Shown here piece by piece: positions 54,043 through 58,914 of a stretch of DNA of 64,000 nt. Origin of the DNA: an uncultured Saprospiraceae bacterium (lineage in GTDB: Bacteria; Bacteroidota; Bacteroidia; Chitinophagales; Saprospiraceae). Location of the stretch: positions 1 to 64,000 of the forward strand of contig CALIZI010000082.1 in assembly GCA_938028705.1 (NCBI GenBank). The letters are read 5' to 3'. The position numbers were made by a program, and so were the translations under genes. The notes below the pieces were generated by a model. It was not told where the DNA came from, did not search any database, and saw nothing but the letters and a program-made list of their open reading frames with translations. The number at the start of each line of letters is the position of its first letter. Position 1 is the stretch's first letter.

Positions 54043-55398
54043 TTATTTTTGTTTCAATATCTCACTTCTCAGTGCATTCAGGTCAATGCGATTTTTTTTC
54101 ATATCAATAGTTTCGGCAGTATTTTTTAGGAGTTGAATAATGTCTGCTCTTTGGTCAGAATTGGTGACTACACTGCTCAATACCAATATATAATCGCCAC
54201 AAACCGTGGAGAGATAATGCTCTTCCAAAACGGTACGGGCTTTGTTTTCATCGCCCGATTTGATGGGAGCTTTGAAGTGCCAATGCAGGGCTTCGCGTCC
54301 GTTGCTATTCACCATTTCATGCTCAGGGAATAGCTCTAAAGCTACTTCTTCACTCAAGGTACTTCGGACGTTATTCATCTCGTCGCGCATCTGTGCGAGT
54401 AGCAATCCTTCGCCTTGCAGAGGCATATTGCCCCTGCTAAAATTGGAAACAGGCAGAGCTATCATTTGAAGTATTTTACCGTCCGTTATAAAACCGATAT
54501 TTCCTGTATTGATGGTTTTTACTTTGCTCCCCCTCACATCCACCGTAAAGAAAGAAGTCATCTCATTGAACACTTGAATAAAACCCGCATTGCTGCGAAT
54601 ACCGCCACTCCGATAATCCATAGATTTTATCAACTCACCCTGCTCGTACTCCTTGACATCCAGTAACTTACCTTTGCTACTCCACGATGAAAACCGACCG
54701 TTTTCTTTACCCGCAACATAATTACCTTCGGCTTTTTTCTGCTTATTGGCATACCATTCGGTATTTGTTCCATTTCGCTCTCCACCTTCAAATTGTGCTT
54801 CCAACATCCGCTCGCCATTCTCGTACCACTTGCGTATCGTACCTTCCTCCAAACCTTCCGAGTAGGTGATTTGTTGGTCTTTATTGCCATTCTCATGCCA
54901 CCACGTATGCAGCCCCTGCTCACGCCCATTGGCATACTCACCTTCCGATTTTTTTCCGCCACTCGGATACCACTCAGTAGCCATGCCATTCGGTACACTT
55001 TGCGTATAAGTGACCTCTACTTTTTGCTCACCATTCGAATACCATTGTCGCTCCAAACCCTCTTGTATGCCTTCCACAAAATTTGCTTCATATATTTTTT
55101 GTCCATATTCATCCCAACCTTTCGCCTTGCCGTGCATTTTACCATCCACAAAATCCACTTCCTCTTTTTTACGTGCCGTTTTCAAAAAAGCCTCATACTC
55201 TTCTTTGGCTTTTTCCTTTTGCTTATCATCCTCTGGCGAATATACCTCAAACGCCTTTCCTGTAAAAGGCTCAATGGTGTTGATTTGATAATATAATTTG
55301 TTATTCTGAATTTCTATTTTCGAAAAATGAACCCGCTTTTGAGCATAGCCATTCACCGACAAACAAAAAATTGACATCATTAAAATGTATTTTTTCAT
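54043..55398 (-). CDS. MORN-repeat (YwqK-like) secreted protein
   Basis: A 451-residue protein with a signal peptide (…CLSVNGYAQ). Residues about 85-270 contain around seven MORN_2/YwqK repeats of ~23 residues with the pattern 'G....W..NG.....Y..G...G' (for example GLERQWYSNGEQKVEVTYTQ, GMATEWYPSGGKKSEGEYAN, GTNTEWYANKQKKAEGNYVA). The remaining 180 residues are of unknown fold. Databases often label such repeats as a toxin-antitoxin YwqK antitoxin, but nothing here suggests a TA system; a structural envelope role is more likely. Confidence 0.8.
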   Translation of the reverse strand: MKKYILMMSIFCLSVNGYAQKRVHFSKIEIQNNKLYYQINTIEPFTGKAFEVYSPEDDKQKEKAKEEYEAFLKTARKKEEVDFVDGKMHGKAKGWDEYGQKIYEANFVEGIQEGLERQWYSNGEQKVEVTYTQSVPNGMATEWYPSGGKKSEGEYANGREQGLHTWWHENGNKDQQITYSEGLEEGTIRKWYENGERMLEAQFEGGERNGTNTEWYANKQKKAEGNYVAGKENGRFSSWSSKGKLLDVKEYEQGELIKSMDYRSGGIRSNAGFIQVFNEMTSFFTVDVRGSKVKTINTGNIGFITDGKILQMIALPVSNFSRGNMPLQGEGLLLAQMRDEMNNVRSTLSEEVALELFPEHEMVNSNGREALHWHFKAPIKSGDENKARTVLEEHYLSTVCGDYILVLSSVVTNSDQRADIIQLLKNTAETIDMKKNRIDLNALRSEILKQK

Positions 55399-55911: not shown

Positions 55912-57489
55912 ATGAGAATACACCTATCTATCTTAATGACCCTTTTAATGCCTGCTCTTCTTTTTGCCCAACCTTGTACGGTCAATGATGCCAGAGGATG
56001 TGTATGTGAAGACGGTAGTACGGATTGTTATTTATTGCCCAATATCAAACTTTCTTACGACCTTCTGGTGGATGCGGCAGAAAATCCGGAGACTCCCGGT
56101 TTGTTAAGAGTATCAGTTTCCACTCCAAATGTAGGACACGGACCATTGAGAGTCATTGCTACGAATGACCTCGTTTGCGGAGTCGATACTTTTTTTAATA
56201 GTAGCATCACTGTCTGTCCTGACGGAAGTGACCCGAGCCAACTGGTCAAGCAACGAGTTTATCGCAAGCAAGGCGACAACATGACATACCAAGACCGCTG
56301 GGCAGGTACGATGACCTATCACCCTACACATGCCCACGCTCATTTTGACGATTGGGGCGTGTATTCCCTACGCATCCCCGACCCCAACGAGCCGAATCCA
56401 CTCAACTGGACGATGGTGGGCGAAGGAGCAAAACTCGGTTTTTGTCTGATGGATTATGGTACTTGTGAATACTATAATGGGCATTGCAGGGATGATAACG
56501 ATAATATCTTGACGACTAATCTTCCGAACTACGGTTTGGGTGGCGGAACATACTCTTGTGGTGTGACCAATCAGGGTATCAGTGTAGGTTGGACGGATGT
56601 TTATTATTACTATCTGGACGGCATGTTTATCACGATTCCCGCAGGGGTTTGTAATGGTGATTACGCGCTTGTCGTGCAAGTTGACCCGCATGATGTCCTG
56701 CTGGAAGAAAATGAAAATGACAATCTAATGGTTGCGCCGATTACACTGACCCAACAGACGAATTGCGTTTGTGCAAGCCTTGACCTTGACATCAGATTCG
56801 ATGGTTTTCCTACACAAACCAATTGGGAAATCACAGATGCTAATGGCACTGTGGTAGCTTCCGGCGATGGTAGCGGAAGTATTGGAAATGCTAATGTTAT
56901 AGAAAATACTTGTTTGCCTGATGGCTGTTATGATTTGACTTTTTACGATACTGTGGGCAATGGTATGTGTCCTTTTCAAAGTGCCGCCAATAGTTCAGGT
57001 ACTTTTATTACGCCGGGTACTTTGATTTCGTCGGGGAGTGTGGTGGCTAGTTTAGGCTCGGTTGTCACGCCCGGCTTATGTGGCAGTTATAGCCTTTATG
57101 ATGCCACCGGAAATTTAATTGTTTCGGGTGGTGGCGGTTTTGGTGCTTCGCAGAGCAATAATTTTTGTATGGTCAATGGCGTACCACAGCGCATAATGCC
57201 TGATACGGAAGGACTTGGGTATGATAATAAGAGAATGGCAAATACTTCTTTGCTGAATGTATATCCGACTTTGGCTTCGGACCGACTCACGATTCATTAT
57301 AACAGTAGCGAAGATATAGAAATTAATGTCATTGATATCAACGGTAAAATTTTGCAACAATATTCACGAGATAAACATGCAGCATCCATTACTACATTAA
57401 ATATATCGAATATTCCAACAGGTATTTATTTTATTCAAATTATGACTGCTAATGGTGTTGTGATGACGGAAAAGTTTGTGAAGCAATAA
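55912..57489 (+). CDS. lysyl oxidase family protein with T9SS domain
   Basis: A 525-residue secreted protein. Residues about 35-285 match the lysyl oxidase domain: copper-site histidines in YHPTHAHAHFDDWG (H137, H140, H142, H144), the quinone-cofactor lysine K174 in EGAKLGFCLMD and tyrosine Y231 in QGISVGWTDVYYYYLDG, and the closing NGDYALVVQVDPHDVLLEEN. In animals this fold oxidises peptidyl lysine to allysine for crosslinking. Residues about 290-430 hold a Cys-rich module repeated in the next gene, and 445-525 a T9SS sorting domain. Substrate here is unknown. Confidence 0.88.
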   Translation: MRIHLSILMTLLMPALLFAQPCTVNDARGCVCEDGSTDCYLLPNIKLSYDLLVDAAENPETPGLLRVSVSTPNVGHGPLRVIATNDLVCGVDTFFNSSITVCPDGSDPSQLVKQRVYRKQGDNMTYQDRWAGTMTYHPTHAHAHFDDWGVYSLRIPDPNEPNPLNWTMVGEGAKLGFCLMDYGTCEYYNGHCRDDNDNILTTNLPNYGLGGGTYSCGVTNQGISVGWTDVYYYYLDGMFITIPAGVCNGDYALVVQVDPHDVLLEENENDNLMVAPITLTQQTNCVCASLDLDIRFDGFPTQTNWEITDANGTVVASGDGSGSIGNANVIENTCLPDGCYDLTFYDTVGNGMCPFQSAANSSGTFITPGTLISSGSVVASLGSVVTPGLCGSYSLYDATGNLIVSGGGGFGASQSNNFCMVNGVPQRIMPDTEGLGYDNKRMANTSLLNVYPTLASDRLTIHYNSSEDIEINVIDINGKILQQYSRDKHAASITTLNISNIPTGIYFIQIMTANGVVMTEKFVKQ

Positions 57490-57590: not shown

Positions 57591-57795
57591 GTCATTACAA
57601 TAGTATAATTTTTGAGAAAACAGAAAAACTCCACCCATCAAAACATCATAAAGCATTAATTGTCAGATATTTAGATATAAAAACAAAAAGTTTTTTGATT
57701 ATTTTAACCAAAAAAAATAACAGAAAACAATTTACAATGATGTTATTTTTGAGTTTATGGAAATTATCATTTTAATCAAAAAACAAAATAGAATC

Positions 57796-58914
57796 ATGAA
57801 AAAAACTTTTATCCCTTTGATGTTCGTTTTTATCCTTTTCGGATGTACGAATATTTTTGCCCATGAAACCAAAAGGCTTGATAGTCAACCCAATCTTCAA
57901 TGCAGTAATGTAACACTCACACTCAATTTCGACAACTTCCCCAATGAAACAGGTTGGTCTATTGTAGATGCAAATGGCATTACAGTTGCTGCCGGTGACG
58001 GTTACACCGCTGCCGACTCGACGGCGACCATAAATGAATGTCTGCCATACGGCTGTTATAGTTTTGTCATTAAAGATACCGGAGGCAATGGTATTTGTTG
58101 TGGATTTGGTAACGGTTCTTATACCCTTACAGATGATGCTACGGGCAATGTACTCACCTCAGGTGGAGCGTTCAGTTCGAGTGAAAGGACGAATTTCTGT
58201 CTTGATGAACCAACTTCTTGTGCCAAAGTAGGTTTACGGATTCGCTTCGACAAAACTCCTCAACAAACAAGTTGGGAAATCACAGATGCCAATGGTGGTC
58301 TAGTGGCTTCTTCCGGTGGTACTTACGCTACAAACTTAGCCAACACAGGTCTTGCACTGCCCGAAGTAGCTTGTCTGCCCGATGGCTGCTATGATTTGAC
58401 TTTTTTTGATGCCATCAACAACGGGATGTGTCCTTTCCAATCTAACGCAGCAGGCGTAGGTACTTTTGTTACACCGGGTACTTTGGTACCTGTGGGAAGC
58501 ATTGTGGCTACTTTGGGAGCAGTGGCATCACCAAGTATCTGTGGCAATTACGTACTCTATGGTGTTGACGGAACGCTCATCGCTTCAGGCGGCGGTGCTT
58601 TTGGAGCTTCGGAAACCACTAATTTCTGTTTGGTCAATGGCATGGCACAACGTATAGTTCAGGATACGGAAGCGCTTATAAATATATATCCGACTTTGGC
58701 TTCAGAGTGGCTTACCATTGATTATAACGGTAATGACGATATACAAATTAATATCATGGATGTCAACGGTAGAATTTTACAACAACATGCGCCAGATAAA
58801 CATGCAGCCCCGACATTTACACTGAATATATCGGATATTCCGACGGGTATTCATTTTATTCAAACCCTTACAGCTAATGGCGTAATAATGACTGAGAAAT
58901 TTGTAAAACAATAA
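57796..58914 (+). CDS. secreted Cys-rich repeat protein with T9SS domain
   Basis: A 372-residue protein from ATG 57796 (MKKTFIPLMFVFI…) with a signal peptide ending near FAHE. It holds two tandem modules (about 35-135 and 138-285) of the pattern 'C..V.L.L.FD.FP..T.W.I.DANG..VA.G … CLP.GCY.F…D..GNG.C', then a T9SS sorting domain. The second module and C-terminus are highly similar to those of the lysyl oxidase-like protein upstream, at DNA level too, showing recent duplication. It lacks the oxidase domain. Possibly a binding or substrate partner. Confidence 0.82.
   Translation: MKKTFIPLMFVFILFGCTNIFAHETKRLDSQPNLQCSNVTLTLNFDNFPNETGWSIVDANGITVAAGDGYTAADSTATINECLPYGCYSFVIKDTGGNGICCGFGNGSYTLTDDATGNVLTSGGAFSSSERTNFCLDEPTSCAKVGLRIRFDKTPQQTSWEITDANGGLVASSGGTYATNLANTGLALPEVACLPDGCYDLTFFDAINNGMCPFQSNAAGVGTFVTPGTLVPVGSIVATLGAVASPSICGNYVLYGVDGTLIASGGGAFGASETTNFCLVNGMAQRIVQDTEALINIYPTLASEWLTIDYNGNDDIQINIMDVNGRILQQHAPDKHAAPTFTLNISDIPTGIHFIQTLTANGVIMTEKFVKQ

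Follow-up and report, generated by a model that had tools for sequence, protein, structure and literature searches.

A divergent lysyl oxidase homolog with a four-histidine cluster and a T9SS sorting domain in an uncultured Saprospiraceae bacterium

The window, a stretch of 64,000 nucleotides (positions 1 to 64,000 of contig CALIZI010000082.1, assembly GCA_938028705.1), comes from an uncultured Saprospiraceae bacterium whose genome comprises 8.0 Mb in 483 contigs and whose nearest named relatives are uncultured Saprospiraceae. On its plus strand, an ORF with an ATG start at 55912..57489 encodes a protein of 525 amino acids that we annotate as a class B lysyl oxidase (LOX) and a probable T9SS cargo. 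The protein likely begins with a signal peptide, recognized by eye (residues 1-20, ending in LLFAQ; 55912..55971), and a Cys-rich extension (residues 21-41) precedes the LOX domain. The predicted LOX domain spans residues about 42-284 (56035..56763), as judged from profile alignment to classical LOX, sequence alignments and a structural match to human LOXL2 (PDB 5ZE3). It is followed by an accessory module of 134 amino acids (56779..57180) and a T9SS type A C-terminal sorting domain (57259..57480). Upstream of the LOX gene, a minus-strand gene at 54043-55398 contains MORN-like repeats (WYxNG, by eye).

The putative active-site residues lie within the LOX domain. Four histidines form a cluster (H137-P-T-H140-A-H142-A-H144; 56320..56343), K174 (56431..56433) and Y231 (56602..56604) are the counterparts of K653 and Y689 of LOXL2, which form the lysine tyrosylquinone (LTQ) cofactor, and C178 (56443..56445) and C216 (56557..56559) are the counterparts of LOXL2 Cys657 and Cys673. 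The first-pass annotation had placed H140-x-H142-x-H144, K174 and Y231 at these positions and equated them with the copper and LTQ residues of animal lysyl oxidase, and both the ORF and an alignment of 55 LOX domains bear this out.

The window protein scored 32.2 bits against the Pfam Lysyl_oxidase family (PF01186; gathering score 20.4), with the match confined to residues 213-284, i.e., 72 residues covering model positions 128-199 of 204 in the C-terminal third. When the protein alone was searched against the PDB with phmmer, LOXL2 appeared at a non-significant E value of 0.42. Profiles were more sensitive: a profile of class B aligned with that of class A, the classical Bacteroidota LOX, at 98.0% (hhalign, E 1.6e-13), with the His, Lys and Tyr residues in register, and it retrieved LOXL2 as its sole match among all PDB sequences (E 0.004). 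A mixed profile including class A rows matched LOXL2 at E 3.8e-38.

The 55-row alignment consisted of 22 class A rows, 30 class-B-like rows, Gemmatirosa, one contig from a viral collection, and human LOXL2; L042, identical to L009, was removed, L037 was omitted as the same stretch as L008, and G025:C27a, which is L038, was counted once. Eleven columns were invariant in all 55 rows (H140, H142, H144, K174, G222, D229, Y231, G249, Y251, E265, and N271), although the HxHxH motif is partly a product of selection because some ORFs had been picked for it; no locus was lost in this way (43/43, then 9/9 passed). The identity of the three His, K174, D229 and Y231 across 55/55 domains argues that the LOX residues of the window protein are not due to chance. 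C178 and C216 were each present in 54/55 rows, and the only exception, the LOX of G025:C206, had neither. This joint loss fits a disulfide pair, and the LOXL2 counterparts Cys657 and Cys673 form a disulfide (PMC9180022). Comparison of the window gene with L006, L008, L010, and L014 over a stretch of 268 residues gave dN/dS values of 0.04-0.08, with dS near saturation; for three of the seven relatives (L007, L009, and L013) dS was saturated, and the ratio was taken from the remaining four. The gene is thus under purifying selection. Judged by homology and residue conservation, the window protein is a divergent lysyl oxidase homolog that retains all copper- and cofactor-forming residues.

AlphaFold models of the protein had a mean pLDDT of 38.8 (an 11-row alignment, model A2) and 56.4 (12 rows, one of them divergent, model A5), with values below 50 around Y231. 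When the latter model was searched against 350,542 PDB chains with Foldseek, LOXL2 5ZE3 ranked first (E 0.015, probability 0.93). VIA-align also placed 5ZE3 first (Z 7.5, 135 residues, 3.3 Å, 20% identity, chain residues 547-740), ahead of runners-up unrelated to LOX with Z scores of 6.7 and below. A Foldseek E of 0.015 and a Z of 7.5 are values that, taken alone, common sandwich folds can also attain, and the match is support for a LOX fold rather than proof of it. A structure prediction against LOXL2, which had been suggested earlier as a check, thus points to the expected protein as the best PDB match, but in models with mean pLDDT of 56.4 or less. A wide separation of K174 and Y231 had been named as a sign against LOX. 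In the LOXL2 precursor crystal, however, the LTQ-forming Lys and Tyr are themselves 16.6 Å apart (PMC9694262), and a similar distance in a model would therefore not speak against LOX.

The window gene is one of five LOX genes in its genome, of which one belongs to class A (L001, which also has a T9SS tail) and four to class B (the window gene, L002, L004, and L005). Both classes were present in all six genomes of the genus. Class-B-like genes were also found in G009, G025, G035, and G037, and more distant ones in G165 and G228. A phylogenetic tree of 47 rows separated class A (support 95/81) and class B (86/86, not starred) into two single groups on separate sides, and placed LOXL2 beside class A with weak support (89/74). 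The two classes share the same domain, the three histidines, the LTQ Lys and Tyr, and the C178/C216 pair. They differ in their other cysteines: class A keeps the cysteine of the CHxHxH motif and those of CGDIY/CQW, whereas the positions of LOXL2 Cys625, Cys685, and Cys695, which are Cys in class A, were non-Cys in 20/20 class B rows checked. Class B has cysteines of its own at positions 22, 30, 32, 192, and 247. The classes also differ at the first His position (H137), which was His in none of the 22 class A rows (D, N, E, I, or G, mostly D or N) but in 25 of the 30 class-B-like rows by exact spacing; a MAFFT alignment, in which gaps bring two more rows into register, gave 27/30.

In the comparison with LOXL2, the His, Lys, and Tyr residues of the window protein are aligned, and H137 corresponds to LOXL2 H623, i.e., to the H289 position of LOX. 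The disulfides of the LOXL2 domain are Cys573-625, 579-695, 657-673, and 663-685 (PMC9180022). This set, shared by animal LOX and LOXL proteins, was not found in class B, where the Cys657 and Cys673 positions alone are kept out of the five compared (625, 657, 673, 685, and 695). The window protein has no counterpart of Cys625, Cys685, or Cys695, nor of H652, the residue preceding K653, where it has A173. In place of the SRCR domains of LOXL2, it has a bacterial module and the T9SS tail. By its sequences, class B is therefore a real variant, with four histidines as in animals and cysteines unlike those of animals.

Bacterial LOX, including those of Bacteroidetes, and the conservation of their active sites have been published (Grau-Bove et al. 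2015, PMC4448552), and that article states that bacterial LOX sequences lack the first copper-site His (H289). Class B corrects this generalization. Bacterial LOX were thus already known, and what is new is class B, with the first His in 25/30 rows and three LOX cysteines absent in 20/20. Our search of the open-licence literature turned up no article describing a LOX exported by T9SS or a bacterial LOX with four His. The LOXL2 variant H623Q, altered at the counterpart of H137, had less than 50% of the LTQ (PMC9694262); four-His and three-His paralogs within one genome therefore offer a direct test of the first His. The divergent LOX set also shows which residues the chemistry needs, namely the three His, K, D, Y, and nearly always the Cys pair.

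PF01186 was detected in 18 of the 40 nearest relatives. Among 395 Bacteroidota genomes, four had PF01186 and five matched the class B profile (the source genome being included in each count); two of these five, G111 (E 1.5e-4) and G242 (E 8.1e-4), were weak partial matches. Among viral contigs, we found one class A relative (L104; L108 is the same contig met again), no class B relative, and no relative of the Gemmatirosa LOX protein. The plasmid searches returned one record, Gemmatirosa, for each of two queries, and no class A relative was found in phages.

The earlier claim of a T9SS signal on the LOX was confirmed. Residues 450-523 matched Por_Secre_tail (PF18962, 51.2 bits), the T9SS type A sorting domain TIGR04183 was detected at 51.3 bits, and the T9SS pore SprA is encoded in the same genome. 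Together with the signal peptide seen by eye, these features suggest that the window LOX is a T9SS type A cargo and probably secreted.

The accessory module is an add-on to T9SS exoenzymes throughout the genome. In the source genome it occurs at 21 near-full places with 58-100% identity (the window copy included) and at 9 shorter ones; across unrelated exoenzymes the identity is about 58-75%. Nineteen near-full places lie beyond the window LOX and the next gene, and 10 of these 19 are at ≥70% identity. Ten of the proteins encoded at the 19 places were scanned; all ten had a T9SS tail and nine had a further domain. Partner domains included M14, M12B, and M36 peptidases, endonuclease I, a PETase-like hydrolase, a BD-FAE esterase-like hydrolase, sorbosone-dehydrogenase and sortilin types, and an LVIVD repeat protein. 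Within the genus, many matches to the module were also seen in G002, G003, and G005, and in G001 and G004 a shorter sister module alone was matched at E 1e-20.

The next gene (57796..58914, plus strand; the ORF listing starts at 57757) encodes a signal peptide, two modules, and a T9SS tail, with no catalytic domain. It had been described as a duplicate of the C-terminal modules of the LOX, hinting at a paired substrate or scaffold. The likeness itself is real (62% identity) but not special, given the 19 other near-full places, and the pairing did not survive: since the module is common to unrelated T9SS exoenzymes, its presence in the next gene as well is no indication of a partnership. The N-terminal 36 residues of the next gene matched an M14 carboxypeptidase located downstream of the LOX in L006/L115 (score 100), compared with a score of at most 35 against 25 proteins of the source genome. 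Among relatives that share the architecture, L006/L115, from a sister species, is the closest, and its LOX lies between two M14 carboxypeptidases. We had considered the next gene as a conserved LOX partner; the collinear match beside the L006/L115 LOX turned out to be a complete M14 carboxypeptidase (1146 amino acids). No M14 domain was found within the window, and none was found at the other class B loci searched, many of which are on short contigs. The simplest reading is that the next gene would be a deletion derivative, or remnant, of an M14 carboxypeptidase in the same place.

We consider it likely that the window gene encodes an active Cu/LTQ amine oxidase that leaves the cell through T9SS. 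The homology, the conserved residues, purifying selection, the T9SS tail, and the pore gene were observed directly, and from them we infer copper binding, the cofactor, activity, and location. The signal peptide would take the protein across the inner membrane. It would then fold in the periplasm and bind copper through H140, H142, and H144, with H137 nearby. Copper and O2 would convert Y231, which would be cross-linked to K174 to yield LTQ, and T9SS would deliver the enzyme to the cell surface or the medium. There, primary amines, probably protein lysines, would be converted to aldehydes, a reaction that also yields H2O2 and ammonia. Against an active enzyme stand the Pfam match of only 72 residues, the three missing LOXL2 domain cysteines, and the replacement of H652 by A173. 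The divergent scaffold and lost cysteines, together with the raised copy number in the genus (four class B genes in the source genome), could also suggest a pseudo-enzyme, in which the LOX fold is retained as a binding or structural domain and the catalytic residues are left over. We regard this as improbable, since His, Lys, and Tyr are invariant in all 30 class-B-like rows, where most other positions vary, and dN/dS is low.

As to the role of an active enzyme, we tentatively and slightly favor the modification of the cell's own surface or matrix proteins, such as the cross-linking of adhesive material, over the oxidation of amines for nutrition or against antibiotics. This preference comes from relatives that fuse the same domain to adhesin-type modules: cadherin-like and Big_9 domains in L088 of the source genome, fn3 and Ig_7 in L015, and Ig_7 in L032. 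Such fusions argue against an enzyme for feeding or chemical competition, which would release ammonia from exogenous amines or peptides, produce H2O2, or inactivate amine antibiotics, and no amine-catabolic genes were noticed by eye beside the window LOX. However, the module is mostly found on degradative enzymes (M14, M12B, and M36 peptidases, endonuclease I, and esterase-like hydrolases), which fits a nutritional or processing role as much as cross-linking, and the L006/L115 LOX is flanked by two M14 carboxypeptidases. HTU-LOX of the archaeon Haloterrigena turkmenica, a prokaryotic LOX likened here by its description, was an active, BAPN-sensitive amine oxidase when refolded with copper and oxidized many amines, aminoglycosides, and polymyxin (PMC6452851, where its function in the organism is described as cryptic); its activity also speaks for an active enzyme here. 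We rate the feeding or competition role as somewhat unlikely, though a serious alternative.

Animal lysyl oxidase cross-links collagen, and an earlier proposal was that the enzyme might oxidize collagen of a host or of the sponge type, the next gene supplying a paired substrate or scaffold. The chemistry would allow it. However, there was no Collagen (PF01391) match in the source genome, which also leaves collagen of the cell itself unsupported as a target, nor was there any indication of a host; with the module at 21 near-full places and the next gene reading as an M14 remnant, we consider this proposal very improbable. A broader scenario, which we think unlikely but worth stating, is that class B represents a Saprospirales-private LOX branch that independently arrived at an animal-type four-His site, rebuilt its disulfides, and by fusion to adhesin and T9SS domains came to cross-link a bacterial protein matrix through allysine chemistry, as a counterpart of the animal extracellular matrix. 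These genes provide a bacterial system in which to study the function of LOX before its use on collagen in animals.

Other class B genes varied in their architecture. L088, L089, and L090 of the source genome were without a recognizable T9SS type A tail; their C-terminal region is conserved and ends in NNGISSRVPK or FSAVPK, possibly representing another sorting or anchoring domain. In G025, L124 (G025:C27) and L125 are tandem class B LOX genes, and the genome has two further class B LOX. The G025:C206 LOX, in which the counterparts of C178 and C216 are gone, keeps the His, Lys, and Tyr residues.
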